Assembly: GCA_025057415.1 (NCBI GenBank)
Contig: JANWXI010000024.1
Span: 1-33,787, forward strand
Direction: 5' to 3'
DNA length: 33,787 nt
From: Chitinophagales bacterium
GTDB lineage: Bacteria; Bacteroidota; Bacteroidia; Chitinophagales; LD1
Made by a program: the position numbers and the translations under genes. Under the pieces are notes generated by a model. It did not search any database. It was not told where the DNA came from and was given only the letters and a program-made list of their open reading frames with translations. Below are positions 2-14,751 of the stretch, piece by piece. Position 1 is the stretch's first letter. Every line of letters starts with the position of its first letter.

Positions 2-460
2 GCCGCACACTACCGGAGCGACTTAAGCCCGCTCAAAGCCATTCAGTACCTCGACATAAAATGCTTTATGGGGGAGTTGGTGCTCACAAAAGTTGACCGT
101 GCAGGTATGGCAAACAGCTTAGAAGTGCGCGTGCCTTTTTTGCACCATCATCTGGTTGAAAAAATATTTTCATTGGGTGAACGAATGTATCATCACCCGC
201 AACAAACGAAATGGCTGCTGTACCAACAGTTGAAAAACACACTCCCTGCTGTAATATTGCAACGAAAAAAACAGGGATTTGTGGGGCCCGATAGCTACTA
301 TATGAACATTGATTGGTACAGACACGAATTGAAAAACTCCTGTTTAATTCAGGACGGATTGATCAACTCAGAATATTTGGACAAATTATTGCAAACGAAA
401 TACGATTGGAGATTGTGGAAAATTATGATAATGGAAAAATGGTATAGAAGATGGATGTGA
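2..460 (+). CDS. asparagine synthase-type amidotransferase, C-terminal part (truncated by window edge)
   Basis: This is the C-terminal end of an asparagine synthetase B-like protein; the reading frame is open to the window edge, so the start lies upstream. The family makes an amide from a carboxylate using ATP and an amino-group donor. The signature KVDRAGMANSLEVRVPFL matches the conserved C-terminal stretch of the synthetase domain, and the preceding YLDIK segment also fits. The glutaminase half is not in the window. It lies 58 bp before a glycosyltransferase on the same strand. In envelope polysaccharide loci such proteins often amidate uronic acids or act on unknown acceptors rather than making asparagine, so the substrate here is open. 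The family call is firm; the role is inferred from the neighbours. Confidence 0.9.
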   Translation, partial: AAHYRSDLSPLKAIQYLDIKCFMGELVLTKVDRAGMANSLEVRVPFLHHHLVEKIFSLGERMYHHPQQTKWLLYQQLKNTLPAVILQRKKQGFVGPDSYYMNIDWYRHELKNSCLIQDGLINSEYLDKLLQTKYDWRLWKIMIMEKWYRRWM

Positions 461-518: not shown

Positions 519-2528
519 ATGAAAGAAAATATTTATGTGTTTGTTGTGTGCGGAGACAAAGAGCATTTAGATACCTTACATTACGCTTTAACTGCACTGA
601 AAAAATTTTCACAAAATAAAATATGGGTGGTAACAGATTCACGGCGCAACGATACTCCTATAATTCATGAGCATGTACTAGATATAAAAACACCCGATAA
701 CTTAACCCGACATCAGGCAAGTATCTATCTGAAAACCGGTCTGTATCGTTTTTTGCCTGCGGGTAATTTCTATTGTTATCTTGATACAGATGTAGTTGCA
801 GTATCTCCCAAAGTAGATGAAATATTTCATGAATATGTGCCGCCAGTCACGTTTGCCCCTGATCATTGCAATCTAAGCAGGTTTAGTCCAAGTGCAGTGA
901 ATTGCGGCTGTGTTGAGGAATTCAAAATGCGGACAAACGAGTTACGTTACTTGTTTAAGAAATACCGCCACCTTACGCGTCCGCCTGAAAACGAACTTAA
1001 AAAACAGGCGCTAATTAAAAAGTTAGATGAGATCAAAAAAGATAAACTACGGTATAAACTCATATCTGTCAAGTTCAATTTATCCAGGTTTACATTTCGT
1101 TTGGATGAGGATAATTTCTTAGATAAAAGAAAACACTACTGGCACGATGCTGCCGGAAATGTTATATTATATGAACGAGAGGACGATGCTATATTACAAA
1201 TAGAACAAGCCACTGATTACCGCTGTGACACAAAGAATAACCATACCTGGACGTATCATGGTAAGAAAGTTTTCACCGAAGAGTTGGCCTGCGATCACCT
1301 GCGTGAACAGATAGAAAAAACTTTTCAGATCCGGATAACGGCTCCTGAATGGCAGCACTGGAACGGAGGTGTATTTCTGTTTGATGAGCGCGGATTTGAA
1401 TTTTTGCGCCGGTGGCACGAAAAAACCTTACGAATATTCTCAATGCCCGAATGGAAAACCCGCGATCAAGGTACATTGGCTGCTACGACATGGGAATTCG
1501 GGCTACAAAATCACCCTACTTTGCCGGAAACTTACAACCTGATTGCTGATTATCATCAACCGGTTTATCATTATTTGGGGGGCATGCGGTTTAAATCGGT
1601 TAAAAATGATAAAATTTTTGAGCCACATTTCATACATGTTTATCATCATTGGGCTGACCATGAATGGCCCGTATGGCAAGAGGTGGAGAAACGCACGGGG
1701 TTACATGTGCCTCCCCAGGAAAACACCATTAATGCGTTGTGGATCGGTGATCGCCTTTCGCCATTAGAATTGCTGACAATCTATTCATTCCTTGAGCATG
1801 GGATGAAGTTTCGCCTCTGGGCCTACGATAAAATTCGTACCCCTTTACCGCAGGGAACCATTGCCGAAGATGCGAATGATATTATACCGCGTGAAAAAAT
1901 TTTCCGCTACAAAAACAAAAGCCAGTTTGGGCACGGCAAGGGGAGTGTGGCGGGCTTTAGTGACATATTCCGGTATAAGTTACTGTATGAGCACGGAGGA
2001 TGGTGGGTGGATATGGACGTGACGTGCCTCAAAAAGTTTGATTTTCATCAGCCGTATTTTTTTCGCAAACACCACAATCTGAACGTGGTGGGTAACGTGA
2101 TGAAGTGCCCGAAAGGCAGTGTGTTGATGAAGCGATGTTACGAAGAAGCGGTTGAGCAGGTGGATGCCTATAACGCGGACTGGCATAAACCTATTCACAT
2201 ACTCAATAAACACATACAAGCGTTGCAGTTAGAAAATTACATTGTGAGCGATTGTGGTAATCAGGACCGTTGGGATGACACCGGCCGCTTTGTGTACGGC
2301 AAAGAAGAGTATCCCGACCACTGGTATTTTATTCATTGGCAAAATGAGGAGTGGCGCCACAAGAAAATCAGTAAACGATATTTTTGTCATTACAGTACAT
2401 TGGCAGAGTTCCTGTATCATTATGGTTTGTACAGGCGCCCCGGCGGGGTCGTATCGCAATGGCTGAATGAGTTGTACTATTTACCTGCCTGGAGAAGATT
2501 TCGCGAAAGGATATTCTCATTATTTTAG
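519..2528 (+). CDS. two-domain glycosyltransferase (GT-A-like + GT32-like sugar transferase)
   Basis: The protein has 669 residues and appears to join two nucleotide-sugar transferase domains. The N-terminal part has a GT-A-like beginning and a DTD metal/nucleotide motif at residues 89-91 in the context FYCYLDTDVVAV. The C-terminal part begins near residue 405 (NALWIGDRLSPLE) and carries the hallmark of DXD sugar transferases (GT32 / capsular polysaccharide synthesis type): an SDIFRYKLLYEHGG stretch followed by WWVDMDV, with DMD at 498-500. No signal peptide or membrane helix is evident, so it is probably cytoplasmic. The radical SAM gene A starts 5 bp after its stop, so the two are almost certainly cotranscribed. 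Sugar donor and acceptor cannot be read from the sequence. The transferase call is strong for the C-terminal half and moderate for the N-terminal half. Confidence 0.82.
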   Translation: MKENIYVFVVCGDKEHLDTLHYALTALKKFSQNKIWVVTDSRRNDTPIIHEHVLDIKTPDNLTRHQASIYLKTGLYRFLPAGNFYCYLDTDVVAVSPKVDEIFHEYVPPVTFAPDHCNLSRFSPSAVNCGCVEEFKMRTNELRYLFKKYRHLTRPPENELKKQALIKKLDEIKKDKLRYKLISVKFNLSRFTFRLDEDNFLDKRKHYWHDAAGNVILYEREDDAILQIEQATDYRCDTKNNHTWTYHGKKVFTEELACDHLREQIEKTFQIRITAPEWQHWNGGVFLFDERGFEFLRRWHEKTLRIFSMPEWKTRDQGTLAATTWEFGLQNHPTLPETYNLIADYHQPVYHYLGGMRFKSVKNDKIFEPHFIHVYHHWADHEWPVWQEVEKRTGLHVPPQENTINALWIGDRLSPLELLTIYSFLEHGMKFRLWAYDKIRTPLPQGTIAEDANDIIPREKIFRYKNKSQFGHGKGSVAGFSDIFRYKLLYEHGGWWVDMDVTCLKKFDFHQPYFFRKHHNLNVVGNVMKCPKGSVLMKRCYEEAVEQVDAYNADWHKPIHILNKHIQALQLENYIVSDCGNQDRWDDTGRFVYGKEEYPDHWYFIHWQNEEWRHKKISKRYFCHYSTLAEFLYHYGLYRRPGGVVSQWLNELYYLPAWRRFRERIFSLF

Positions 2529-2533
2529 CATTT

Positions 2534-4093
2534 GTGGAGTTGCATCCTAAAGTACTGGAGCAATATGCGGCATCGCGTCACCATACTTACCGGGGCATCG
2601 TATGCCATGCGCCCTTTGTAAGCATGAATTTTGACCAGACGGGCGGAGTTCGTGCCTGTTGTTATAATTTTACTCATCTGCTCGGCAAATGGCCGCATCA
2701 ATCCCTTTTAGAAATATGGAGAGGCGAACAAGCCCGAAAATTACGTCAATACATACGCGAAAATAACCTCGGCGGCGGTTGTAAAGAGTGTGGGAAAATG
2801 ATTATTGCCGGTAACCACCAGGGGGTACGCGCCCGATATTATGATGAGTTTATGCCTGATAATTTTTTTACCCGCCTGCGCTATACGGCTAATCGCTTGT
2901 GGGGTTATTTGCCCTATCCCAGAGTGATGGAGTTTGAGCTGAGTAACGAGTGTAATCTGGAATGTGTCATGTGTAATGGGGATTTCTCTTCGGCTATACG
3001 CAGAAACCGTGAAAAGCGCCCGCCCATCATTTCGCCTTACAACGATGATTTCGTAAATGAATTGGATGACTTCATCCCGCATCTTACAGATGCCAAATTT
3101 CTGGGTGGAGAACCTTTTATGATTGAAATCTATCTTAAAATCTGGGAACGAATCCTCAAAATCAAACCCGATATCCGCATTCACATCACTACGAACGGCA
3201 CATTTCTGAACAAACGCATCAAAGAACTGCTGGAAGGTTTGCGCGCAGGCATTGTAGTTTCTATTGATTCTGTACAGGAAGAAACTTATAAGAAAATACG
3301 TATCAACGGAAATTTCCAAAAAGTAATGGAAAATCTGGAATACTTCCGGGACTACACAGCCCGTAAAAAAACATTTATATCCATAGCTGCCTGCCCCATT
3401 ACGCTCAACTGGCACGAGTTGCCGGATATGCTTCGCTTTTGTTTAGAGAAAAATATTACACTTTATTTTAATGCCGTGTTTACACCGCGTGAACTTTCGC
3501 TTCGTGAACAAACTCCGGAATTTCTAGAAAACATTATCGGAGTATTGGAAAAACACCCCTTGCCTGATACGACAAAAAATGTACCCAATTCGCATAAAGA
3601 CAGTCTGAATGCTTACCGGGATTACATTAATCTGCTCAAAGGATGGCTCAAAGAACGTAAGCGCGAAGTAGCTTTGCACCGGCAGCGGGTTGTGGATGTC
3701 CATGAAATCTTGCGAAACGACTCAGTCCCTATTCTTGCCGGAAACCCGGACGAACTAATCGCTGATTTAATGGAGCTGAGCTATGAAGGATACCACGACA
3801 AAGAAAAAGAAATACAACAGCAGCTCATGACGCTTGTTAGCAGTGCAGATGAAAAAACGCTTGCAGATTTATTGAAATGTTATCAGCGTTTTTATTTGTT
3901 GTACAATCGGCTAGACCCATCGCAAATTGATCAGGAAAAAGCCAACTTATTTGCCTCGTTACTTTATACTCATCCCAAGAAAGATCAAATACTTTCCCTG
4001 ATGTGCTCCATGTCGCCCGTAGAAACGGGTGGTTTTATCTACCAAATGACCGCAGAACAACTTAGCGAAAATTTACAACGTTATTTCGCCTGA
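2534..4093 (+). CDS. radical SAM protein A with N-terminal SPASM/twitch-like domain
   Basis: This is a 519-residue radical SAM enzyme with reversed domain order. An N-terminal SPASM/twitch-like module (C24, C42/C43, then C83-x2-C86, with the typical SLLEIW...LR stretch between) precedes the radical SAM core, whose [4Fe-4S] motif CNLECVMC lies at 140-147 and whose GGEP lies at 191-194. About 170 C-terminal residues are mostly helical and unassigned, ending in a TAEQLSENLQRYF motif shared with B and C. The start is GTG at 2534, chosen because the next in-frame methionine would remove C24. It begins 5 bp after the glycosyltransferase stop, and its 3' end overlaps convergent gene B by 13 bp. The radical SAM class is certain. 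The reaction is unknown; sugar or peptide modification are both conceivable. Confidence 0.9.
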   Translation: MELHPKVLEQYAASRHHTYRGIVCHAPFVSMNFDQTGGVRACCYNFTHLLGKWPHQSLLEIWRGEQARKLRQYIRENNLGGGCKECGKMIIAGNHQGVRARYYDEFMPDNFFTRLRYTANRLWGYLPYPRVMEFELSNECNLECVMCNGDFSSAIRRNREKRPPIISPYNDDFVNELDDFIPHLTDAKFLGGEPFMIEIYLKIWERILKIKPDIRIHITTNGTFLNKRIKELLEGLRAGIVVSIDSVQEETYKKIRINGNFQKVMENLEYFRDYTARKKTFISIAACPITLNWHELPDMLRFCLEKNITLYFNAVFTPRELSLREQTPEFLENIIGVLEKHPLPDTTKNVPNSHKDSLNAYRDYINLLKGWLKERKREVALHRQRVVDVHEILRNDSVPILAGNPDELIADLMELSYEGYHDKEKEIQQQLMTLVSSADEKTLADLLKCYQRFYLLYNRLDPSQIDQEKANLFASLLYTHPKKDQILSLMCSMSPVETGGFIYQMTAEQLSENLQRYFA

Positions 4094-5547
4094 AGCTCGG
4101 AGTTCAAAAAATATTTCTTGAAATGCTCGGCCAATTGTACAGGATTCCCGTTATTCACTACTTCAAATAACATCGATACAGGTGTATGTAAAATACAGCC
4201 ATAAAAACGGGTATGGGGGGCTTCAAGCATCACACGCTCCTCAATGTTTAGCAGTTTTTGCTCAAATAATTGCAGGCGATATTTTTTTTGCTCTTCGCCT
4301 TCGTTAAAAGTCAGGTAAATGTGTTCTTCTACTTTTTTTAATAAGATTTTTCTGGCTTCGCGCTCCGAAATGTCTGCCCGAAACGGTGCATCGCTTTCGG
4401 CAACCCGACTCACGGCATCATTCCACCAGTTTTTAATCTGCACTTCCACCAAATTGTGATACAAACGAACATTATGCTGCGCAATCGGTTGGTTGTGATA
4501 TGGTTCATCAAACCGAGCAGCGGAGAGTTGTCGATAAATATCTTCCAGTTGATTTGCAGGTAATGCCCACAAACTCCATTCTACCGGGCGATGTATCGTA
4601 TTGAACCATATATGAATCTGGTGTTTATTTACAAAGCGAATGAACTCGGGCATCTCGTGCCAGTTGTTTCGCATAGGATTGACCATGATGCAGAGAACCC
4701 GATGATTACGTTTGCAATATTCGTGATAGAAATGAAAATTTTCCATCAGGCGATCAAAGTGTGCATTAACGCGTATCGTTTCGTAAATTTCGGGTGTAAG
4801 TGAGTCAATAGACAGATTGATATGGATGTTCAGTTTATTTAACCACTCTTTTACCTTGTAATTCACTACCGTGCCATTGGTAGCCATGACGATTTTTAAC
4901 TGAGGGTTAAGTTGGTAAACTTTTTCAAAGATTTTGAACACAATACCGATGAGAAACGGTTCTCCGCCGTTGAAGCGGAGTTCTTTAAGATGAGGGATAA
5001 ATTCTTCCAGTTGCTCCACAAACGCCTCGTCATACGGACTGCGGAGGGGGGGTAATTTATCTCTGTTTTTGCGGATAGATGAGGAGAGTTCACCTATGCA
5101 CATGACACACTCTAAATTGCAGGTGTTGCCCAGCTCCAGTTCCATCATAGCCGGGTAATCGGCTGGAGGGTTGATGTCATACGCGCGTGCCAATACCGAA
5201 CCGTAATTCCCGATTTGTAAATTTTTGAGACACACCTGGCATTTATCCGTCAAGTCATACGCCAATAATTTCCTGCGCAGGGATTGAAATTTTTCACCAA
5301 ACCAAATTTCCCGGATGGATTTTTGAGGATAAGAGTCGGGTTCAATAAAGGTGAGCCAGCAAGGCGCACAGTCGCCATGTACATTAAAATACATATTGCT
5401 GAATGGAGCATGACAGATATGAGTAGTACCCAGGCGGCCTCGCGAAGCGTTATAAGCGGCTATTACCTCTGCCGATAAGCCGGGGCCTTTGGGCTTACGT
5501 ACTTTGGCAATCAATCGACTCACAATGTCAGCAGCCAACCTTCTCAT
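4081..5547 (-). CDS. radical SAM protein B with N-terminal SPASM/twitch-like domain
   Basis: This is a close paralogue of A and C. Numbered from the ATG at 5547, the N-terminal cysteine module is C45, C60/C63 and C103-x2-C106 with SIREIW between; the radical SAM motif CNLECVMC is at 143-150 and GGEP at 194-197. A signature follows the cluster motif as in A and C: GELSSSIRKNRDKLPP and then PYDE. The C-terminal extension ends with NPVQLAEHFKKYF, matching the tails of A and C. An in-frame TTG at 5562 would add five residues; ATG is preferred. It lies 26 bp downstream of gene C on the same strand, so the two probably form one transcript, and it converges on gene A with a 13-bp overlap of coding ends. 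Substrate unknown. Confidence 0.9.
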   Translation of the reverse strand: MRRLAADIVSRLIAKVRKPKGPGLSAEVIAAYNASRGRLGTTHICHAPFSNMYFNVHGDCAPCWLTFIEPDSYPQKSIREIWFGEKFQSLRRKLLAYDLTDKCQVCLKNLQIGNYGSVLARAYDINPPADYPAMMELELGNTCNLECVMCIGELSSSIRKNRDKLPPLRSPYDEAFVEQLEEFIPHLKELRFNGGEPFLIGIVFKIFEKVYQLNPQLKIVMATNGTVVNYKVKEWLNKLNIHINLSIDSLTPEIYETIRVNAHFDRLMENFHFYHEYCKRNHRVLCIMVNPMRNNWHEMPEFIRFVNKHQIHIWFNTIHRPVEWSLWALPANQLEDIYRQLSAARFDEPYHNQPIAQHNVRLYHNLVEVQIKNWWNDAVSRVAESDAPFRADISEREARKILLKKVEEHIYLTFNEGEEQKKYRLQLFEQKLLNIEERVMLEAPHTRFYGCILHTPVSMLFEVVNNGNPVQLAEHFKKYFLNSELQAK

Positions 5548-5573
5548 AAATAAACAATACAAGTAATATATGT

Positions 5574-7076
5574 CTAAACTATCACGGCTTTTTCTAAACT
5601 TTCGCGTAACATGCTCACCAACTCATCTTCGGAATAATTTTTCAGTGAGTTGATGATTTGCTCCGGTGTGCCTTTCATCATAAGCCCATATATTTTGTCT
5701 TCTCGATCATCAATTTTACTTACTACGCGGCGCAGCTTATCGGTAAGCGCGATCATGTTTAGCTCCGAAAATTCAGAGTTTTTTACAATTGCTTCTGATA
5801 ACGCACCTAAAACATCTGCTTCGGTATATGATTTATCAATAACAATTGCCGTACGTTTTCTATATAATACGGGATCTTCATTTTGTAACAATATATTTTC
5901 AAAGCGATAGTCCAAGTATCGTTTTTCATCGGGGTTGTTGATATATGTTTGTATGTAGTGTTTAAAATCTTCAAAACATTGATAATTATGTCGTTCAGCG
6001 GGTGATTTTTTCGGCAAAGCGATGTTCCCCATATAACGCAGTATCTCCTTTAATTTTTCGGTAGGGTATTCGGCTATTGAGAAATGCGCGGGTCTCTCCA
6101 GGTAGCTGATGAATATATATGCTCCTAATTCATTACATAAATGAATCACCTGTGGCAACTCATGCCAGTTTTCCTGTTGCACAGTAAAACTTAACGACAG
6201 ATACTTCCCTTTTCTGCGACACACTTCATTAAACCTGCGGATGTTTTCCATCAATTTTTCATACTGTATGTTTTTGCGGATGCGTTCCACCAGTTGTTTA
6301 TCGGTTGCATCAATACTGATAGCCACCTCAAAATTCAAATCCCGAATAATGGACTCAATCTTAGCGTTCCAGTGAGTACCATTTGTAATTACAAACAACG
6401 GTAAACGCGGATTAAGTTGTCTGATTAAATCCCAAATTTTATAGTATATGGAAATCAAAAATGGCTCACCGCCATAAAACTTTGCTTCTTTAAGGTGAGG
6501 AATGTATTTAGCCAATTGTGTCAAAAAAAGGTCATCATAAGGCATAGGAATGGGCGGAAGTTTATCGCGGTTTTTGCGGATGCTGCTGCTCACTTCACCC
6601 ACACACATCTGACATTCTAAATTACATTCATTGCTCAATTCAAACTCCATCACCTGCGGAAATGTAGCGGCTGTATTTTGATAATATTTGTCAAAGACAA
6701 GCGGCTTCAGGTTGCTGAATTTCCCTTTTTCAAAGAAATAACGGCAGTGCTGACATCCATAGTTCAGATCGTTGTGAAGCATGAATTGGCGCAGTTGTTT
6801 TGCTTCAGGGCTATTCCAGATTTCGTCAATACTCTGTTCGGGGTATTTTCCTAACAGAACATCGCGATTGTACGAGCATGCAAATACTTTACCTGAGAAA
6901 GAAAAAGTTAAGCTATTAAAGGGGACATAACAAAATATGGGCTTTGCGCCAAGCGGGCGAAAACGATTATAACGCCTGTACTGGCGCAAATCGAGGGTAT
7001 CGTAACCGGCCGCACGCGCCTGCTGGATTTTCCTGTTAATAGTGAACAAAGTCCTGAAATGCTCCAGAATATCCAT
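5574..7076 (-). CDS. radical SAM protein C with N-terminal SPASM/twitch-like domain
   Basis: This 500-residue protein is the third member of the A/B/C subgroup. The N-terminal module has C49, C67 and C108-x2-C111 with QSIDEIW between them; the SAM-cluster motif CNLECQMC is at 151-158, followed by GEVSSSIRKNRDKLPP, and GGEP is at 202-205. The C-terminal helical tail ends with TPEQIINSLKNYSE, equivalent to those of A and B. The ATG at 7076 is preceded by an 85-bp divergent spacer shared with gene D, which should hold promoters for both directions. It is the first gene of a minus-strand pair with B. The radical SAM assignment is certain. Whether A, B and C act on the same substrate at different positions is an open inference from their similarity. 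Confidence 0.9.
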   Translation of the reverse strand: MDILEHFRTLFTINRKIQQARAAGYDTLDLRQYRRYNRFRPLGAKPIFCYVPFNSLTFSFSGKVFACSYNRDVLLGKYPEQSIDEIWNSPEAKQLRQFMLHNDLNYGCQHCRYFFEKGKFSNLKPLVFDKYYQNTAATFPQVMEFELSNECNLECQMCVGEVSSSIRKNRDKLPPIPMPYDDLFLTQLAKYIPHLKEAKFYGGEPFLISIYYKIWDLIRQLNPRLPLFVITNGTHWNAKIESIIRDLNFEVAISIDATDKQLVERIRKNIQYEKLMENIRRFNEVCRRKGKYLSLSFTVQQENWHELPQVIHLCNELGAYIFISYLERPAHFSIAEYPTEKLKEILRYMGNIALPKKSPAERHNYQCFEDFKHYIQTYINNPDEKRYLDYRFENILLQNEDPVLYRKRTAIVIDKSYTEADVLGALSEAIVKNSEFSELNMIALTDKLRRVVSKIDDREDKIYGLMMKGTPEQIINSLKNYSEDELVSMLRESLEKAVIV

Positions 7077-7161
7077 TAAAGCCGGGTATTCTTGTATTCC
7101 CGTGTAAATTTACCCATATTTATCATACAATTTGTAACTTTTGTACCTAAAATTCGGGTGT
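7077..7161. promoter_or_regulatory. divergent spacer between radical SAM genes C and D
   Basis: These 85 AT-rich bases separate the starts of two divergently transcribed radical SAM genes, so promoters for both directions are expected here. A 10-bp perfect palindrome GTAAATTTAC sits in the middle (about 7103-7112). On the plus strand TAACTTTTG at 7135-7143 resembles the Bacteroidota -7 box TAnnTTTG with one extra spacer base. On the minus strand TAAATTTA lies 15 bases after a TTG. None of these is a perfect match, so exact promoters are not claimed. Confidence 0.4.
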
Positions 7162-8406
7162 ATGTCTATCAAAGAAATATGGAAAAGATGGTTTGAGAAG
7201 CAGAAAATCCGGGATCCTGATAAAACTGACTTTTGCTATTATCCGTTTTTTCAGGTGTTGATGACTGCCGGCGGCAAGTATATGCCTTGCAGTAAACACG
7301 ATGCCTTTATCACACATGGCGGGCGAGTACTCACTTCCGATAAAGACAGTATTGAGGATGCCTGGAACAGCGACTACATGCAAGCGTTACGTCAATCTTT
7401 TTTAAAGGGTGGTCCCCGGTTTGACGGGTGCAAGGAATGTTGGCGCGAGCAGGCCATGGGGTTGCGCCCCATGCGATATGATTCTTACGGGTATAATGTA
7501 CCAGAGTCGCAGGTACAAAACCCGCTGATGCCCATGCGCGTAGAAATCAACGCCAGCAATATATGCAACCTGCGTTGCCGTATCTGCATGCCCACTGCCA
7601 GCCATCGCTGGATACCTGAAGCACAAAAGCTATATAATTGGCAGGAGGAAACACATTTCAACCTTACACCCCGAAACATAAAAATTATTCAACGCTGGGT
7701 ACCGCATTTTACACAAATAGGTCTCTTTGGGGGAGAGCCGCTTATGAGTCAGGAAAACTTAGACCTGTTGCGTTATTGTGCAGACACCGGACACAGTAAA
7801 CATATTTCCATTTTGCTCAACACCAATGGAACTATTTACAGCGATGAAATCGTACGCCTGTTTCTGCAATTCAAAAAGGTTTATATCAACTTCAGTATTG
7901 ATGATATTGGCGAACGATTTGAATACCAACGCAGTGGTGCTAAATGGGATGAGGTAGTACAAAATATGAAGAATTACCTGAAATATGGCGGACACACGGA
8001 TGCAGATATTATTGAAGCCAAAATCTGTTGCAGTGTTACTAACATGAACATCTGGTATTTTCCGGAGTATTTCACGTTTATGAATGAACATTTCCCGGGC
8101 ATGCCGGTATATTGGAACCTGGTGTATGAACCCTGGGAGTTTTCCATTGAAATTTTGCCCGAAGAAGTAAAAGAAAAAATCCGCCACCGATTGCGGAATT
8201 ATATAAAAACCACCTATGAAATGACACGCGAGAAAACAAAAACCATTGATGACCTCATTCTTTATCTCAACAATAAAATTGACAAGCCCTTTAGCGGTTT
8301 TCTGCAAAAGATAAAACGACATGATGAATATCGCAAGGAAGATTTTTCCAGAACATTTTCGGAATGGTGGGAGATTATCAAAGCGTATGACACGGTGGCT
8401 GTATAA
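7162..8406 (+). CDS. radical SAM protein D with N-terminal SPASM/twitch-like domain
   Basis: The product from ATG 7162 has 414 residues. The N-terminal cysteine module has C25, C43 and C90-x2-C93, with SIEDAW and LR between; the radical SAM motif is CNLRCRIC at 135-142 and GGEP is at 190-193. It lacks the IRKNRDKLPP signature of A-C and belongs to a different subgroup, closer to F in its DxxGxRFEYQRSGxKW-like segment. A TTG at 7141 is in frame, but a promoter-like TAACTTTTG overlaps it, so ATG at 7162 is preferred. Gene E follows after 13 bp. The class is certain; the substrate is unknown. Confidence 0.88.
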   Translation: MSIKEIWKRWFEKQKIRDPDKTDFCYYPFFQVLMTAGGKYMPCSKHDAFITHGGRVLTSDKDSIEDAWNSDYMQALRQSFLKGGPRFDGCKECWREQAMGLRPMRYDSYGYNVPESQVQNPLMPMRVEINASNICNLRCRICMPTASHRWIPEAQKLYNWQEETHFNLTPRNIKIIQRWVPHFTQIGLFGGEPLMSQENLDLLRYCADTGHSKHISILLNTNGTIYSDEIVRLFLQFKKVYINFSIDDIGERFEYQRSGAKWDEVVQNMKNYLKYGGHTDADIIEAKICCSVTNMNIWYFPEYFTFMNEHFPGMPVYWNLVYEPWEFSIEILPEEVKEKIRHRLRNYIKTTYEMTREKTKTIDDLILYLNNKIDKPFSGFLQKIKRHDEYRKEDFSRTFSEWWEIIKAYDTVAV

Positions 8407-8419
8407 GCTATGAATCAAT

Positions 8420-9547
8420 ATGAAACTGTTTTGCAAATTACCCTTTACGCGCATCTCGGTGGACGATTCGGGTAACGTATGGCCTGCGTGTTGTCCGGAA
8501 TGGGTGGCTTTTCCGCTTGGAAACATCTTTGAACAGTCCTGGGAAAATATATGGATGGGCAAAAACGCACGCTTATTACGCGAATCTTGTTTTGACGGCA
8601 GTTTGCGTTACTGCAAACATACGTGGTGTCCCAATATTACCGATGCAAAAGCCGGTATTGATAATTACCATGTCATTCCGTTAGAAAAAGCCCCCCGCCA
8701 ATGGCAGCCCGCGCCTCCTGTACACATAAATCTGAATTACGACCCCACGTGTAACTTGCGGTGCCCGAGCTGCAGGGCTGACTTTATCAAACTTACGCCA
8801 AACGAATTGAACCGGGTGTATGATTTACACAAATACACATTTAAATATATTGTGCCAGAAGTGGAAAGTATCGCCTTTACGGGAGTAGGCGATCCGTTCA
8901 TGAGTAAAGTTTTTCGCCAGTTTATGATGGAGTTTAACCCGGCAGATTTCCCGCGCTTAAAAGTGATACATTTGCACACCAATGGTTTGTTATTTGATGA
9001 AGAAACTTACACACAAATGAAAGGATTGCATCGCATACAACTCTCCACGGATATTTCTATTGATGCTGCCAGTGCCGATGTTTATGCTATCGTAAGGCCA
9101 CCCGGCAAATGGGAACGCCTGATGAAAAATCTGCAGTTTATTCGTAAATTAGATAATCTGGTGCTGTTGGGTATCAGTATGGTAGTACAACGCGCCAACA
9201 TGCATCAACTCAGGGAATTTGTGGCGTTGGGAGAGCAGCTTGTTTACGGCAGGCGTGAGACGTTTGTTGAGTTCAAACGATTGCGGCATGACCCGCATAT
9301 CAGCGCAGAAGCATACAGACAGATGAACGTGGATGATGCTCCGCCTGATTTGCTGCGCAAGTTTTCAGAGGACTTACAGTATTTGGAGCAACTCCGTCAA
9401 TATCAAAATCGCTACAGAATAATGCCCGAAATCAGGCATAATCTTCAGGTGTATTTAAATACTCAAACAAATGTTAGCCCATTACCACTTATAGTGCGGG
9501 GACGCCTTCTTGCGCGTAAGGTCTTTAATAGTGTTACTTTAGGTTAA
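8420..9547 (+). CDS. radical SAM protein E, divergent, with N-terminal SPASM/twitch-like domain
   Basis: At 375 residues this is the shortest and most divergent of the six. It begins directly in the cysteine module: C5 (FCKLPF), C24/C25 (WPACCPE), a SWENIW stretch, then C65 and C70 spaced CxxxxC rather than CxxC. The radical SAM motif CNLRCPSC is at 111-118. The GGEP motif that normally follows strand 2 is replaced by GVGDP (155-159). It lies 13 bp after gene D and is probably cotranscribed. Its 3' end converges on gene F with only 13 bp between the stops and no obvious terminator hairpin. The fold call is secure. The altered motifs may mean a different SAM-binding contact or partner; activity cannot be judged from sequence alone. 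Confidence 0.87.
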   Translation: MKLFCKLPFTRISVDDSGNVWPACCPEWVAFPLGNIFEQSWENIWMGKNARLLRESCFDGSLRYCKHTWCPNITDAKAGIDNYHVIPLEKAPRQWQPAPPVHINLNYDPTCNLRCPSCRADFIKLTPNELNRVYDLHKYTFKYIVPEVESIAFTGVGDPFMSKVFRQFMMEFNPADFPRLKVIHLHTNGLLFDEETYTQMKGLHRIQLSTDISIDAASADVYAIVRPPGKWERLMKNLQFIRKLDNLVLLGISMVVQRANMHQLREFVALGEQLVYGRRETFVEFKRLRHDPHISAEAYRQMNVDDAPPDLLRKFSEDLQYLEQLRQYQNRYRIMPEIRHNLQVYLNTQTNVSPLPLIVRGRLLARKVFNSVTLG

Positions 9548-9560
9548 CATCATTAAAATT

Positions 9561-10868
9561 TCAGATTACCAGTTCAGCCAGTTCCGGATAAATGTTGGCA
9601 AAATTTTCATTGCGCAAAGCATCTATACTTTTAATCCTGGTGCGCAACTCTGTTTGCCGGTCCGGTTCAGCAGAATACATATATTTCACAACGCTCTCTA
9701 AATGGTTACGGAAGTGTTCGCTTAGAGGGATGGTGGGTAAAGTGCTCTGGATGAAAGTTTGTATTTTACCGGCAGCGTGATCTTTCAAATGTTTTGGCAG
9801 TTGTGTGATTGAGAAGCATTCCGGCCCAAATAACAGGTAGAGGTTCATGCGCTCGGGCTGAACGAAACGATTATGAATCATATATTGATAGAAATCGGTA
9901 ATATCCATAATGTTAAAAACGCTTACAGTTACATTTACTCCGAATAAAATATTTGGACATTCCCGCTGGATCTCGCGGATGTTTTCTTCAATTTTGTTCC
10001 AACGTTGTCCCTTTCGCTGATAATCACCTTTGGCGCCCATACCATCTAAACTTGCCCAGACATCTACACACTTAAAATGCTTCCACATTTCGGTAAGGTT
10101 ATAGTTTTTATATCGAAGTGTGGAGAAATTAGTATTGTAACTCAGCGTTACTTCCGTATGGCCTACTTCCAATAACAAGTCAAGTATCCGGTAGTGTTCA
10201 TCCATAAAAAGGGGTTCGCCCCCGGCAAAATGAATACGTTCCACACGGGGAAGTAAGTTCCTTAATGATTCCCACATTTCATCTTCTCTGCCGGTTATCT
10301 TTTTTTCTTTAACAGGGGTATTTCCATACGGATGCCCCGCTACGATTTCCTCCTCATACCACAAAGAGGAATAATCAGAGTTACAAATTCTGCATTTATA
10401 GTTACATTTATTACTGAATCTTAAATCTAATAATAATATATCTGGTGTGTGCAGATAACCACTGGCATCGGTGAGCAAAATTCTATGCGCAATCTTTGCA
10501 TAATCACGATTATAATTCATACGTTCACTAACTTTACCTATATTTTCGTATTTATAACAGTTACCGCATATTGGCGATGATTTACCGGCTAACATATTTC
10601 TTCTGAGTTGGCGCATTTTAGGACTATTCCACTGCGACAACAGGTTGGCATCTTCATTTAAGTTGCCCGTTTCACGGCCATCCCAACTATCCGCCATACA
10701 GCAGGGAGCCACGTTCCCGTTGGTTTGCGCATGTAACTGTATAAAAGGCGCCATGCAAAAGTACTTTGATTTTTTCAACAAACTGTTCTTCCATCCAACT
10801 TGCAACAGAAAATAGCGCAAGGCCGGAATAGCATCCAAAAATTTAAATAGCAGTTTCCTGAAAATCAT
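9561..10868 (-). CDS. radical SAM protein F with N-terminal SPASM/twitch-like domain
   Basis: This is a 435-residue protein with a short hydrophobic N-terminal stretch, then the cysteine module C38 (FCMAPF), C56/C57 (VAPCCMAD) and C101-x2-C104. The radical SAM motif is CNYKCRIC at 155-162 and GGEP is at 216-219. The sequence is typical of what databases name twitch domain-containing radical SAM protein (family name from memory). It lies 19 bp downstream of SGNH-1 on the minus strand, so a radical SAM enzyme and a membrane SGNH protein appear to share a transcript. This is the most direct link between the two protein classes in the locus. Class certain, substrate unknown. Confidence 0.9.
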   Translation of the reverse strand: MIFRKLLFKFLDAIPALRYFLLQVGWKNSLLKKSKYFCMAPFIQLHAQTNGNVAPCCMADSWDGRETGNLNEDANLLSQWNSPKMRQLRRNMLAGKSSPICGNCYKYENIGKVSERMNYNRDYAKIAHRILLTDASGYLHTPDILLLDLRFSNKCNYKCRICNSDYSSLWYEEEIVAGHPYGNTPVKEKKITGREDEMWESLRNLLPRVERIHFAGGEPLFMDEHYRILDLLLEVGHTEVTLSYNTNFSTLRYKNYNLTEMWKHFKCVDVWASLDGMGAKGDYQRKGQRWNKIEENIREIQRECPNILFGVNVTVSVFNIMDITDFYQYMIHNRFVQPERMNLYLLFGPECFSITQLPKHLKDHAAGKIQTFIQSTLPTIPLSEHFRNHLESVVKYMYSAEPDRQTELRTRIKSIDALRNENFANIYPELAELVI

Positions 10869-10887
10869 TTATCCAAAAGTAATAAAG

Positions 10888-12159
10888 TTATGGTGAGCCC
10901 GATGGTGATTGACCGGCACTTACTTGTCGTTGTCCATTATCGATATTCTCTTGCTCATACATTTTTAAAATAGCAGCATACACTGCGCGTGCCAGCAAAA
11001 AGTATCCATTGGCATTGTGGTGCCCGTCTTTTTGCCAAAAGTAGGGCTTGGCATCTTGTGGCGTTTTGATGCCGGCGCTATCGCGATAAAACGGTAATAA
11101 ATCTACGTGGTAAAATTGAGTATGTTTTGCAACGAATGTGTCAAAAAACACCATGTTGTAAGCGTAACGATTGTCAACAATTTCGTTTTGTTCGGGACGT
11201 TTAACGAGTAATACCCGGCATCCATTTGCCTGTGCAAGTCGGTCAAGCTCAGCAAATATTTCGTTCCATTTGGGTTTTAATTCTTCTAAACGACGCTCTT
11301 TCTCTTTCTCCGTGTAAAAGCCATTCCAATAGGTGATGCCTGCTGCATGGAAAGCATAACGCACCGTATAATTTATGGCATATAAAAATTCCCACCAGGG
11401 TCCTTTTGGCTCTTTCCAACCGTTACTTGTGAATCTTTCTAGACCACCCCGGGTTAACAAATCATGCACAAAGTCAAAAATACTATAACTCAGCACAATA
11501 ACGTTTGGCTTGTATCGTGTACCGATTTTTCTAAATTGTGTAACGTAGAAGCCCGGATCATTTCCGCAAATGCCGTAGTTCTGAACCTGATAATCATTGC
11601 CAAGTAAACTGCGCAATATAGCAGGATAGCTGCTGTCAAAGGGGGCGCCATCGCCCTCGGTATAACTATCGCCATACGTTTGAATCAAAATTTTGGTTGT
11701 ATCGCGATAAAAATCATGATCGCTGAAGCCCCATTGATTGGAAAAGCGGGGAAAATTGTACTCCGGAGTACTTAAATAATACGGTTTATCAGGTGTGTAT
11801 GCCTGGATGGAGTCATAATACTGGTGATTATACAATGATTTGTAAAAGCCGCTGCGTTTTTCAATATAGGTCTTAGTAGAACCGGTAATCGTTAATATCA
11901 ACTCAATCATCCCCAACGTGCCAATCAATGAACTAAAAGCTAAAGAAATGTTTCTGCGCAAAAGTTCAGCCTTGAACCTACTTAATATAAGATTTCCTAT
12001 GAACCATACAAAAAGATAAGGTACAAAATGAGTATGCCATTTAACAAAAGACAAGCCCACTTTTTGATACCAGTAGTATTCCCAGGCTAGGTATGCGAGA
12101 AAAGCTAACATTATTAACACCCACACGGGTACCGCGATATTTCTGTAAAGAAATTTCAT
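10888..12159 (-). CDS. membrane-anchored SGNH/GDSL hydrolase-like protein (SGNH-1)
   Basis: This protein has 423 residues. Two or three hydrophobic helices (about 10-27, 44-60 and 73-92) precede an SGNH domain: the GDS nucleophile block is GDSYTEG with S165, the glycine/asparagine block is GICGNDP near 196-202, and the Asp/His block is DGHHN with D378 and H381. SGNH folds include esterases and the AlgJ/AlgX/DltD-type O-acyltransferases. The membrane anchor suggests that the catalytic domain faces the periplasm and acts on a surface polymer (inference). Between helices 1 and 2 it carries WExYWxxxVGxxFxKWHTH (26-44), shared with SGNH-2 and SGNH-3. It is first in a minus-strand unit with radical SAM F and is divergent from SGNH-2 across a 91-bp spacer. 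Confidence 0.85.
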   Translation of the reverse strand: MKFLYRNIAVPVWVLIMLAFLAYLAWEYYWYQKVGLSFVKWHTHFVPYLFVWFIGNLILSRFKAELLRRNISLAFSSLIGTLGMIELILTITGSTKTYIEKRSGFYKSLYNHQYYDSIQAYTPDKPYYLSTPEYNFPRFSNQWGFSDHDFYRDTTKILIQTYGDSYTEGDGAPFDSSYPAILRSLLGNDYQVQNYGICGNDPGFYVTQFRKIGTRYKPNVIVLSYSIFDFVHDLLTRGGLERFTSNGWKEPKGPWWEFLYAINYTVRYAFHAAGITYWNGFYTEKEKERRLEELKPKWNEIFAELDRLAQANGCRVLLVKRPEQNEIVDNRYAYNMVFFDTFVAKHTQFYHVDLLPFYRDSAGIKTPQDAKPYFWQKDGHHNANGYFLLARAVYAAILKMYEQENIDNGQRQVSAGQSPSGSP

Positions 12160-12250
12160 ATCTTGGGGTGAAAAATGTGTTATATATGAGTAAATTTAGT
12201 AATTTTATCTGGCTGACAATTATTTGGCGCCCTTGTTTGTATGGTAAAAT

Positions 12251-13481
12251 ATGATAATTACCCGTAGATTAGCTAACTTTCTTGCGCATCGCTTCACCCT
12301 GCGTATTTCTTTAAATGTAAAGCATCTGATTCTAGTTCTTCTGTTTATTTTGCTGATAACTTACTTGTGTTGGGAAATTTACTGGTGCGCTGCAGTTGGT
12401 ATTCGTTTTATTAAGTGGCATACCCACTTTGCAAGTTATGTCTTATTATATGTTATCGTTTGTACAACGCTGTATGTTTCTGGAAAAAATATATGGCTTA
12501 ACTTATTGTATACGCTTATCGCGCTGGTCGTCTTGGAGGCACTTTGTATGCTTGTGACACCGTCTGACAGGGAATTCATAGATTTTTTCACAGTAAATGA
12601 AAAAAATTATTATCACGTATGGACATCTGATACCTGTATTGAAATTTTGACAACAGAATTCAAACATGAGCGATGTTATAACAGTTTAGGATTCCCCGAC
12701 AAAGAGCCCTCCACACCAAAACATGACTCCGTTATCAGAATAATTTCACTGGGAGATTCATTTACTGAAGGATTTGGGGCTCCCTATGATTCATCTTACC
12801 CCTCCCTATTGAAAAAAGTTGCTGGGATATAAATATCAAATAATCAACGCAGGCACTTGTGGTAGCGATCCGTATTTTAATTACGTAAACTTAAGAGACC
12901 GCTTATTGCCGTATAATCCCGACTGGGTCATACAAACAATTTCTTATCACGATTTAATAAGCGACCTCGCCCTGAGAGGAGGGTGGGTCCGGTTCAAAAA
13001 TGACAGCACGTTGAATTGCATCAACAGGCCCCTTTGGTTTTATCCGGCATACATTAGTCATTTATTGCGGTTATTTTTCAGTGTTGCAGGATACAATTTA
13101 TACACCCCGCATGGTACATCCGATGCGGTTGAAAGAAGGGTACTCCACGATCTGGATACTCTGATGCAGCAGTACACGAATCTGGCTAAAAAAAATAACA
13201 TAAAAATATTATTCGTGATTATTCCCATGAATAACGAGGTGGCGGAGAAAGCATATAATTTGCCCATTACACATATTCTTAAAAAGTACGCAGATAATCA
13301 TACAATTTTTTGTTTGAGCTTGCTGGAAGATTTCTTAAACGAGAAAAAAAGCAAGCATTCTGAGCTAATCTGGAAGCAAGATGGTCATTATACACCATAC
13401 GGTTATTATATTTTTGCGAAAGCCGTTGCAGAAAAAATTTTACATTATGAAAAACAACAATACAGAAATACATTCAATTAA
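12251..13481 (+). pseudogene. membrane-anchored SGNH hydrolase-like protein, frameshifted (SGNH-2)
   Basis: Two reading frames together encode a paralogue of SGNH-1 and SGNH-3. The first (12251-12832) holds the membrane helices, the WExYWxxxVGxxFxKWHTH motif (41-59) and the GDSFTEG block (S170), then runs into a stop after DSSYPSLLKK. The second, from 12819, resumes at LLGYKYQIINAG and holds GSDP and DGHYTPYG near the end. The break falls at a run of six A (12812-12817). Removing one A restores LKKLLGYKY, which aligns with its paralogues. It is therefore either a recent frameshift pseudogene or a homopolymer sequencing error. The rest of both halves is intact, which argues for a very recent event or an artefact. 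The gene also looks AT-richer than its neighbours. Its 3' end overlaps SGNH-3 by 35 nt. Confidence 0.85.
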
Positions 13482-14751
13482 CAATTTCCTTAACCGTAAC
13501 ATAAACATCCAAATAACCTTATCGGTGGCGCAAATGCTATTAATCTTAGTAGCAATCCTACTCTCCTGCTATTTTATTTGGGAAATATACTGGTGGAACA
13601 AAGTGGGGCTGCGATTTATAAAATGGCATACCCACATCGTGTTTGCCTCGCTATGCGCCGGAATAATCGTGGGCATCGGCATATTCATTAGCCGTAAGGA
13701 AAAAAATCGCAACAAGAAGTTACAAACCCTCAGCACATCTTTAATCATAGCAATGATGGTAATTTTACTGGAAACCGCGTTAACCCTAACAGATTCCGTA
13801 AAAACCTATTCGGAGATACGCAGCCATTTTTATCAATCTCCGTTTGAACCTGACACAAAGAATTATTACCACACTGCCCAGCCCGGTAACAAAGTCACCG
13901 TTTCCGCGCCGGAGTTTTCCTATACAACCTCTTATAACTCTTTAGGTTATGCCGATGCCGAGTGGCCTGTGGAAAAACGCAAAGCTTTTCGGATTATCAC
14001 TTCGGGAGATTCATTTACCGAAGGGGACGGAGCACCGATGGACTCCAGCTACCCTGCGTTGCTCAGGCAGATGCTGGGCGATAGCGTAGAGGTGCTCAAT
14101 GCCGGAGTGCGTGGCAGCGACCCCGTGTTTGGGCTGAAAAACATGGAAGACCGCTTTGCCGCTTATCATCCTGATTTAGTAATTCAAGCCGTATCGGAAA
14201 ACGACCTGCTTTTTGATATGTGTATCCGCGGCGGGTATGAGCGCTTTCGACCAGATAGTACGGTGCAGTTTGCTGCTGCACCCTGGTGGGAACCGATATA
14301 TGCTATGAGCTATCTGAGCCGAGTTTTTTTTCACGCGCTGGGTTTCAACATGGCAGAGCCGTGCGGCAAGCCCACCCACTCCGATTTTATTGCCCGTCAG
14401 CAAAAACTGATGATTGACATTCTGAACCGGTTTGAAAAAGCAGCAAAAGCTCAGAATACCCGGGTGCTGATTGTATTTTATCCCACGAAAATTGAAACGC
14501 TGGATTTCCGATATACAACGGATTACCTGCCTCTGAAAAAACACATAGAAACCCTGCCACACGTATCCTACGCTGATATAATGGAGTGTTACCAACATCA
14601 AATAACCGCTCAGGGCAAAGAGCCGCAAGATTTTTATTGGGTAATAGACGGGCATCATAACGCTACCGGCTATCACCTCATGGCTACGTGTATTGCAGAG
14701 GCAATACGTAACTGGTTACAGAAGCGTGACAACCAGCAAGAAACACGCTGA
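13447..14751 (+). CDS. membrane-anchored SGNH/GDSL hydrolase-like protein (SGNH-3)
   Basis: The product from ATG 13447 has 434 residues. A longer frame from ATG 13381 would overlap SGNH-2 by about 100 nt, with a non-homologous N-terminus, so 13447 is preferred; a 35-nt overlap with SGNH-2 remains. Hydrophobic helices lie near 28-46, 65-83 and 97-114. The shared motif WExYWxxxVGxxFxKWHTH is at 45-63. The SGNH blocks are GDSFTEG with S189, a GSDP block, and DGHHNATGYH close to the end. It is the nearest intact relative of SGNH-2 and probably arose by tandem duplication. It likely acts at the membrane or periplasm on an ester in a surface polymer, as transferase or hydrolase; this is inferred. 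It ends in a double stop, TGATGA. Confidence 0.86.
   Translation: MKNNNTEIHSINNFLNRNINIQITLSVAQMLLILVAILLSCYFIWEIYWWNKVGLRFIKWHTHIVFASLCAGIIVGIGIFISRKEKNRNKKLQTLSTSLIIAMMVILLETALTLTDSVKTYSEIRSHFYQSPFEPDTKNYYHTAQPGNKVTVSAPEFSYTTSYNSLGYADAEWPVEKRKAFRIITSGDSFTEGDGAPMDSSYPALLRQMLGDSVEVLNAGVRGSDPVFGLKNMEDRFAAYHPDLVIQAVSENDLLFDMCIRGGYERFRPDSTVQFAAAPWWEPIYAMSYLSRVFFHALGFNMAEPCGKPTHSDFIARQQKLMIDILNRFEKAAKAQNTRVLIVFYPTKIETLDFRYTTDYLPLKKHIETLPHVSYADIMECYQHQITAQGKEPQDFYWVIDGHHNATGYHLMATCIAEAIRNWLQKRDNQQETR

Follow-up and report, generated by a model that had tools for sequence, protein, structure and literature searches.

What might six adjacent radical SAM enzymes, all with a cysteine module ahead of the catalytic domain, do in a single bacterial locus? 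The question is raised by contig JANWXI010000024.1 (label C113) of the assembly GCA_025057415.1, from an uncultured Chitinophagales bacterium, the whole of which, 33,787 nucleotides, was the window analyzed here. Its ORF list holds six consecutive radical SAM ORFs between positions 2534 and 10868, which we named A to F (table 1). To our knowledge, few SPASM/twitch radical SAM enzymes have a known substrate. Such enzymes are encoded by about 165,000 genes, as given in an excerpt of PMC9012708. Our answer, which we consider rather probable, is that the block forms the radical-tailoring part of a locus making and exporting a surface glycan or glycolipid, and that its enzymes are not peptide maturases.

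Layout and Domain Architecture of the Block

Table 1. Genes of the block and its flanks, with positions in the window and supporting matches
Feature	Positions	Strand	Evidence
AsnB-type amidotransferase, C-terminal part only	2..460	+	Asn_synthase PF00733 1.6e-24; contig start cuts gene
Double glycosyltransferase	519..2528	+	PF04488 8.8e-8, PF05704 3.7e-6, both above cut-off
N-twitch radical SAM A, 519 aa	2534..4093	+	PF13186 + PF04055; NF033640 169.9 bits
N-twitch radical SAM B, 493 aa	4081..5562	-	PF13186 + PF04055; NF033640 164.7 bits
N-twitch radical SAM C, 500 aa	5574..7076	-	PF13186 + PF04055; NF033640 177.2 bits
N-twitch radical SAM D, 421 aa as listed from TTG	7141..8406	+	PF13186 + PF04055; NF033640 306.9
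N-twitch radical SAM E, 375 aa	8420..9547	+	PF13186 + PF04055; NF033640 84.9 bits
N-twitch radical SAM F, 435 aa	9561..10868	-	NF033640 377.9; PF13186 above, PF04055 just below cut-off
SGNH/GDSL-type protein, hydrophobic N-terminal part	10888..12159	-	PF13472 1.5e-8, above cut-off
Split SGNH-family gene, two overlapping ORFs (12251-12832, 12819-13481)	12251..13481	+	Local SGNH profile
SGNH/GDSL-type protein, hydrophobic N-terminal part	13381..14751	+	PF13472 2.7e-8, PF00657 3e-6, above cut-off
Second-type SGNH protein (local group SGNH19)	14891..15964	+	PF13472 1.6e-4, below cut-off

A meets B and C tail-to-tail, the 3' end of B overlapping A by 13 bp, and the largest intergenic gap within 519-12832 is 91 bp, which leaves little space there for a precursor peptide gene. 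The start codons of B and D are listed as TTG, with an ATG a few codons downstream in each.

The first-pass annotation had described a cysteine module ahead of the radical SAM domain in all six genes, and domain searches agree: PF13186 (SPASM) is N-terminal and above its cut-off in every one, followed by PF04055 (Radical_SAM), which is above its cut-off in five and reaches 28.7 against 29.5 in F. In the alignment, the first and second twitch cysteines fall at 24/42 in A, 50/68 in B, 49/67 in C, 32/50 in D, 5/24 in E and 38/56 in F; B has an additional cysteine, C65, in the module. The third and fourth form CxxC in A, B, C, D and F and CxxxxC in E. CxxxCxxC is present throughout and GGEP, as that annotation had read, in five of six, its place in E being taken by GVGDP, common to the three E sequences compared. 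Seven cysteines are invariant both across the 46 A/B/C/G-type rows and across the 21 D/F-type rows, the number that two clusters require. A to C are extended at the C-terminus by an additional stretch, which the model of C shows as helical, and Pfam at E 0.01 detected neither PqqD nor another peptide-recognition (RRE-like) domain in any of the six.

The N-twitch architecture itself is already known. The family with the domain in front, to which the first-pass annotation had pointed, is NF033640 (N_Twi_rSAM), a curated N-twitch model with a cut-off of 170 bits that C, D and F pass and below which A and B fall narrowly and E widely. With E-values from 6e-24 (E) to 6e-113 (F), the six matches are not due to chance. 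As a control, the model gave matches at E 0.001 in all of 14 well-known genomes and passed its cut-off in none of them, so that low scores on a generic radical SAM core say little. The remaining matches in GCA_025057415.1 are two, with 30.8 and 23.4 bits.

Aligned to the BtrN twitch domain (profile E 6e-12), the N-terminal module of C has the four BtrN twitch cysteines in register with its own C49, C67, C108 and C111, all invariant in the 46 rows. BtrN has a single auxiliary cluster with four cysteine ligands, according to excerpts of PMC9012708 and PMC6231123, and the alignment suggests that a similar four-cysteine auxiliary cluster can be predicted in C. A twitch domain with one auxiliary cluster is defined, in the excerpt of PMC6231123, as a cysteine, a beta-hairpin, a cysteine, a helix and two cysteines. 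The same order of elements was found in the structure models, which cover two of the six enzymes: C49, E55-58/E63-65, C67, H90-100 and C108/C111 in C (pLDDT 91.8), and C38, E44-47/E52-54, C56, H83-93 and C101/C104 in F (pLDDT 89.6).

Orthologue Groups and the Stable Core

The divergence of the six paralogues, proposed from the sequence alone, was recovered by phylogeny as six supported orthologue groups: A (14 rows), B (15 rows), C (14 rows), E (3 rows) and F (11 rows), each with an SH-aLRT of 100, and D (5 rows) with 99. A is 19-34% identical to the other five.

Loci with at least three N-twitch genes make up 25 of the 71 named loci by script, and 26 after the correction of one ORF-calling error, on maps from which further genes may be missing because ORF pruning favored longer antisense ORFs; the genes are thus not simply scattered. 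The C gene is present, with 511 aa, in L053/L042. A B orthologue of more than 55% identity is present in 20 named loci; C adjoins it in all of these and A in 17. The stable core is therefore the A/B/C triad, not all six genes. The first-pass interpretation keeps its reversed architecture, known family, divergence and co-occurrence, with the triad replacing the set of six as the stable unit; that every enzyme modifies its own position on one product, or that all belong to one complex, stays a proposal. Open frames of about 1000 aa spanning B and C raised the idea of a gene fusion, which we dropped because a stop codon separates the two genes in L026, the sole case inspected.

Vibrio phage records matching C number 40, all below 60% identity and, among the 15 listed, 23-27% identical over at most 63% of C; PHROGs phage radical SAM families match five of the six enzymes (best E 6e-15 to 7e-21), E being without a match. 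Phages therefore carry distant relatives, and nothing points to a phage origin of the block. The plasmid search gave no match for F. Brachyspira plasmid matches cover the radical SAM core only, 36% of C, and consequently the glycosylation block in the excerpt of PMC4267127 is a loose parallel only.

Neighboring Genes and the Probable Substrate

The recurrent neighbors of the triad are a methyltransferase, a UbiA prenyltransferase and the double glycosyltransferase, joined in some loci by the AsnB-type amidotransferase and SGNH genes. The double glycosyltransferase has a glycosyltransferase-like N-terminal half without a Pfam match and a Gly_transf_sug C-terminal half. Its relatives, present in 14 of the 20 loci fetched, take the form of a single double gene, of two separate genes or of the N-terminal half alone. 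Glycosyltransferases are also the genes closest to A. The AsnB-type protein passes an asparagine-synthase model, scoring 464 against a cut-off of 267.1, and with the lasso cyclase model stays far below the cut-off of 525, at 226.8; Cys2 is retained in the five relatives inspected and the full-length relative in L030 carries GATase_7. Next to the triad, AsnB is absent in several loci. The GDSF and DGH motifs are conserved in the alignment of the SGNH family. The halves of the split SGNH gene scored 138 and 168 bits with our locally built SGNH profile, and neither had a Pfam match at E 0.01. In both L039 and L043, an SGNH19 gene lies near a radical SAM gene of group G.

We searched the 71 named loci with local profiles for the glycosyltransferase, UbiA, AsnB and SGNH families. 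Fifteen of them share contigs with the profile seeds and are therefore no independent test. In the other 56, at least one family was found in 40, with the glycosyltransferase in 28, SGNH in 25, UbiA in 19 and AsnB in 14. The sole control, a small one, gave no match among 39 ORFs from three stretches of GCA_025057415.1. Across the 71 loci the counts of SGNH and radical SAM genes were correlated (Spearman 0.41, p 4e-4), an association on which we do not rely because the loci differ in length and are related.

Long contigs of relatives add genes for a sugar amidotransferase, a carbamoyltransferase, a Wzt-like ATPase, B12-radical SAM enzymes and PhyH proteins. In GCA_025057415.1, contig C119, rather than the block contig, carries the ATPase and sugar genes, and the two ABC2_membrane permease matches are on C167 and C196; linkage of the ATPase and sugar genes to the block is thus shown in relatives only. 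WbuX, the N-acetyl sugar amidotransferase on C119, scores 215.8 against a cut-off of 203.2. Its close homologues, which are 84-90% identical in pairs, stand near the methyltransferase, UbiA, glycosyltransferase and A genes in genomes G002 and G005, and a homologue in G020 scored 183.4, below the cut-off. The Wzt-like ATPases belong to the general ABC_tran family only and passed no curated exporter model.

The gammaproteobacterium Methylomagnum ishizawai has on a plasmid a comparable module that includes an ABC exporter, in the order polyprenyl synthetase, twitch radical SAM, asnB, UbiA, hypothetical protein, ABC permease, ABC ATPase, methyltransferase and PhyH. Upstream of these lie six genes with a glycosyltransferase annotation. 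The twitch radical SAM protein of the module shares 37.5% identity with C across 69% of the latter.

The surface glycan or glycolipid reading draws on the triad and the identities of its neighbors, on the Methylomagnum module, on the homology of the twitch module to that of BtrN, an aminocyclitol dehydrogenase, and on the seven invariant cysteines and the little room left for a precursor gene. Against it stand the 16 of 71 named loci in which all four neighbor families are absent by the local profiles, some of them on short contigs, and the fact that SkfB is the top Foldseek match of C. As we picture the pathway, the glycosyltransferases, UbiA and AsnB would assemble an amidated, lipid-linked sugar. 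Every N-twitch enzyme would then cleave SAM at the CxxxCxxC cluster, and the resulting radical would abstract a hydrogen from one site of the sugar or oligosaccharide. By analogy with what is proposed for BtrN, the second electron may pass to the cysteine-ligated twitch cluster, giving a net two-electron oxidation such as the conversion of an alcohol into a ketone or a new cross-link. The SGNH proteins may acylate or deacylate the product, which an ABC exporter would move outward. More tentatively, and with some doubt, A to F may each add a different oxidation or cross-link to one lipid-linked saccharide before export, with A, B and C obligate and the same product methylated by B12-radical SAM enzymes and hydroxylated by PhyH proteins.

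The enzymes could instead act on the lipid or isoprenoid part, that is, on an ether, polyprenyl or acyl chain anchor, which we regard as unlikely. The nearby UbiA and the polyprenyl synthetase adjoining the twitch enzyme in Methylomagnum would fit such a substrate, as would the PhyH-type and Asp/Asn-hydroxylase-type genes of the wider loci; a gene of the Asp/Asn-hydroxylase type has a match, below the cut-off, to the model for the lipid hydroxylase OlsC. F also matches the tetraether lipid synthase Tes by sequence (7tol, E 8.6e-5) and by structure (ranks 4 and 9), but the sequence match is limited to the radical SAM core, residues 144-306. Moreover, the 19 profile matches of C, including BtrN, viperin, BlsE and MoaA, contain no lipid enzyme, although Tes does come up weakly for C alone (E 0.66), and it is glycosyltransferases that stand nearest to A.

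Many characterized SPASM/twitch enzymes are peptide maturases. They are presented as such in the excerpt of PMC8326336 as well. Several radical SAM maturases could accordingly act on one RiPP or protein precursor; AsnB would then close a lactam, and the transglutaminase-like or hydrolase genes would supply proteases. A transglutaminase-core gene does adjoin the group G relative in L043, and with the local transglutaminase-core profile 4 of the 71 loci score above 60 bits; SkfB, which heads the Foldseek matches of C, is itself a peptide maturase. Nevertheless, the gaps within 519-12832 leave little space for a precursor peptide gene, the six lack a PqqD or RRE-like domain at the threshold given above, AsnB fits the asparagine-synthase rather than the lasso cyclase model and keeps Cys2, and the recurrent partners are glycosyltransferases and UbiA, so that peptide maturation seems to us less likely still than a lipid substrate. 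Gene-dosage redundancy, in which six copies catalyze the same step and owe their clustering to chance duplication, would account for the single architecture throughout, but is hardly credible for copies that each have their own orthologue group, of which A differs so strongly from the rest and A, B and C are retained together.

The block hints at a hitherto undescribed radical tailoring route for bacterial surface glycans, and if A to F do each place their own change on one saccharide, the product would represent a new class of bacterial surface polymers that carry multiple radical modifications. The Bacteroidota triad tied to glycosyltransferases and UbiA, and its single-enzyme gammaproteobacterial version, offer a concrete substrate class to probe in named carriers, such as Taishania pollutisoli (L104), whose fetched stretch has one twitch radical SAM gene, and Methylomagnum ishizawai (L126), and work on them would reveal the role of a twitch cluster sited ahead of the barrel.

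Comparison with Known Systems

N_Twi_rSAM has the same order of N-twitch and radical SAM domains, with C, D and F above the curated cut-off, but it is a model name without a function, whereas here six diverged members share one block. Our data suggest that what is new is a multi-paralogue N-twitch module in a glycan-type setting; among the matches listed from the open-licence literature, we found none that describes a cluster of N-terminal-twitch radical SAM genes within a glycan locus. In classical SPASM/twitch enzymes the module is C-terminal of the barrel, in contrast to its N-terminal position in all six enzymes here. This also separates them from BtrN, the 2-deoxy-scyllo-inosamine dehydrogenase of butirosin, whose twitch module appears homologous by its four cysteines aligned with C but follows the barrel; BtrN differs further from A to C in their extra C-terminal stretch.

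The resemblance to SPASM peptide maturases lies in the radical SAM core of SkfB, which tops the Foldseek list for C, although that match is partial (TM-score by query 0.33) and A to F have no peptide-recognition domain and sit in a block with little room for a precursor gene. Wzm/Wzt is the name given to ABC-transporter-dependent polysaccharide loci. With these loci the relatives' stretch shares glycosyltransferases, a sugar amidotransferase, a Wzt-like ATPase and a methyltransferase; it differs from them in its many radical SAM, B12-radical SAM, PhyH-type and SGNH genes. By annotation, glycosyltransferases, ATPase and permease stand together in Methylomagnum; no permease was found beside the ATPase in GCA_025057415.1.

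Six adjacent genes with a front twitch module

The first-pass annotation had proposed six adjacent radical SAM genes of reversed architecture, and six neighbouring ORFs, from position 2534 to 10868, do carry a SPASM domain (PF13186) ahead of the Radical_SAM domain (PF04055) in every case. This N-terminal twitch (N-twitch) architecture is itself already known and named. The curated Pfam cut-off for SPASM is passed by all six and that for radical SAM by five, with F under it by 0.8 bits. Under the curated cut-off of the N-twitch family NF033640, A and B fall narrowly short and E clearly so. The claimed cysteine positions and CxxxCxxC motif were confirmed in the six enzymes, and GGEP in five; the exception, E, has GVGDP, which is common to all three E sequences compared.

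Radical SAM genes of the block, with domain order and family match
Gene	Positions	Strand	Domains and family
A, radical SAM gene	2534-4093	+	PF13186 then PF04055
B, radical SAM gene	4081-5562	-	PF13186 then PF04055
C, radical SAM gene	5574-7076	-	PF13186 then PF04055; passes NF033640
D, radical SAM gene	7141-8406	+	PF13186 then PF04055; passes NF033640
E, radical SAM gene	8420-9547	+	PF13186 then PF04055
F, radical SAM gene	9561-10868	-	PF13186 then PF04055; passes NF033640

The reading of the six as diverged paralogues also held: in a tree of 68 N-twitch proteins (the six plus 62 that 15 relatives contribute through 20 fetched loci), a quick one without bootstrap that gave long-branch warnings, A to F formed six separate groups (SH-aLRT 99-100). 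The tree also holds a fourth copy (C2) resembling the triad of A, B and C, and a further group, G. Identity of A to B, C, D, E and F is 34, 31, 22, 21 and 19%, respectively.

Distribution and conserved order

N-twitch genes are dense in the window's own family and patchy elsewhere, as follows from the family and class counts. Some NF033640 match was found in 30 of 30 genomes of the family, 22 being over the cut-off and 26 having a match of at least 120 bits; among 198 genomes sampled from the class, the corresponding numbers are 182, 9 and 14 (own genome included in the last). A low-score match is no sign of the N-twitch family, since 14 of 14 control genomes have one and none passes the cut-off.

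The best 80 of 200 relatives retained from a scan of named contigs correspond to 71 loci, mostly titled as Bacteroidota MAGs. Co-occurrence of at least three N-twitch genes was observed in 26 of these after correction of ORF calls (25 by script), and in 14 of 56 once the 15 loci on contigs that served as profile sources were left out. A B orthologue of more than 55% identity is present in 20 of the 71 loci, and C was found beside it in all 20, directly adjoining in 17 (L053 included) and with a C2 copy in between in three. A lies tail-to-tail with B in 17 of the 20, the ends ranging from a 17 bp overlap to a 2 bp gap in 16 loci and standing 571 bp apart in one. As for the three loci without A, the contig stops 271 bp past B in L056, and the assemblies of L100 and L105 have, on another contig, an A-like gene about 59% identical to group A. 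The complete A to F set also occurs in one relative (G005), plus a second F.

The large Vibrio phage K566 has three genes annotated as radical SAM (L128, 2714-7116), two side by side and the third one gene off; the product of one of them shares 27% identity with C across residues 45-340. Relatives also occur in KVP40 and other Vibrio phages like it.

Gene neighbourhood and candidate substrates

Where the contig reaches far enough, A is preceded in the fetched loci by methyltransferase, UbiA prenyltransferase and double glycosyltransferase genes, joined in part of these loci by an AsnB-type amidotransferase; many neighbour names come from locally built profiles, with representatives checked by Pfam or NCBIfam. 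Among the 14 loci with C fetched from relatives, eight (L042 included) have an SGNH gene directly bordering C on the far side, and in the window the SGNH genes come after F. One of them (12251-13481) is split into two ORFs overlapping by 14 bp, which points to a frameshift or to faulty assembly. At 16718-21391 the window also encodes a 1557-aa CotH-kinase protein that carries a type IX secretion signal, a lamin-tail domain and eight stretches of InlB-type B-repeat.

On the long contigs of three relatives (G002, G005, G020), the same stretch holds nitrilase, WbuX-type sugar amidotransferase, carbamoyltransferase, Wzt-like ATPase, B12-radical SAM and PhyH-type genes. The last three are present in the fetched part of a fourth (G014), within which neither amidotransferase nor carbamoyltransferase was found. 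In the own genome, genes of these types are on another contig (C119), so their linkage to the block is seen in relatives and not in the own genome. A second cluster on C119 (about 22.4-54.4 kb; L001, L002) comprises six B12-binding-type radical SAM ORFs, named by local profile with one checked by Pfam, together with a Wzt-like ATPase and genes of the SGNH, PhyH and Asp/Asn-hydroxylase types.

Across the 71 named loci, local profiles matched glycosyltransferase in 41, SGNH in 35, UbiA in 30 and AsnB in 20, with at least one of them present in 55 (28, 25, 19, 14 and 40, respectively, in the 56 loci off the seed contigs); a small control of three own-genome stretches (39 ORFs) gave no match at 60 bits. 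The named complete case, by annotation, is plasmid pRS11DPr1 of Methylomagnum ishizawai, with the order polyprenyl synthetase, twitch radical SAM, asnB, UbiA, hypothetical gene, ABC permease, ABC ATPase, methyltransferase, PhyH. Further annotated N-twitch matches have different surroundings: one in Paracoccus adjoins a nucleotide sugar dehydrogenase and two glycosyltransferases, and one in a Vibrio phage is surrounded by hypothetical genes. The open-licence literature searched yielded no account of several N-twitch paralogues forming a module in a glycan locus.

In loci with a group G enzyme (L043, 15571-16851; L068; L069), its partners are a glycosyltransferase, a transglutaminase-core protein and a second SGNH type. 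In the close relative G002, the D gene lies between two proteins related to each other, of 601 and 567 aa (L041, 11266-13071 and 14371-16074); a scan of one of them gave no more than a GT61 match below threshold.

Beyond the observed architecture, orthologue groups, synteny and neighbour families, the substrate would be a lipid-linked saccharide. Alternatively, the enzymes may modify the lipid, as suggested by UbiA, by a polyprenyl synthetase, by a hydroxylase of OlsC-like type in the wider locus, and by F matching Tes across the core. Peptide maturation by the six enzymes is disfavoured, even with SkfB as the best structural match of C, because the block leaves little room for a precursor gene (the stretch left of the contig start lies outside the window), no recognition domain was found in the six, and AsnB fits an asparagine synthase, not a lasso cyclase.

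Cysteines, models and the BtrN twitch

The 46 rows of A/B/C/G type and the 21 of D/F type each have seven invariant cysteines; for E, three sequences were compared. Seven is the number that the two clusters need, so no further invariant cysteine is left, which speaks against a role as Cys-donor epimerases.

AlphaFold models of C (pLDDT 91.8, pTM 0.76) and F (pLDDT 89.6, pTM 0.86) predict the twitch order, which for these two of the six enzymes means the order of elements, not cysteine geometry. Neither has a whole-length structural match among its best 50 Foldseek rows, since query TM-scores there stay at or below 0.35 (C) and 0.37 (F).

A phmmer search against solved structures matched residues 47-111 of C to BtrN's twitch region, with E 7e-5 over the whole sequence and 0.14 for that segment taken by itself; a profile of 46 relatives improves the whole-sequence E to 6e-12. 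C49, C67, C108 and C111 are in register with 169, 187, 232 and 235 of 4m7s, positions being counted from the alignment. According to PMC9012708 and PMC6231123, the auxiliary [4Fe-4S] cluster of BtrN has four cysteine ligands, and the twitch fold, a beta-hairpin leading into a helix, has one Cys ahead of the hairpin, a second behind it and two more past the helix. The barrel of the block's enzymes would generate a 5'-deoxyadenosyl radical and, by analogy, the front twitch cluster may accept the second electron, the net outcome being a putative two-electron oxidation as in BtrN, whose four twitch cysteines appear, from the aligned residues, to be matched by those of the front module of C.
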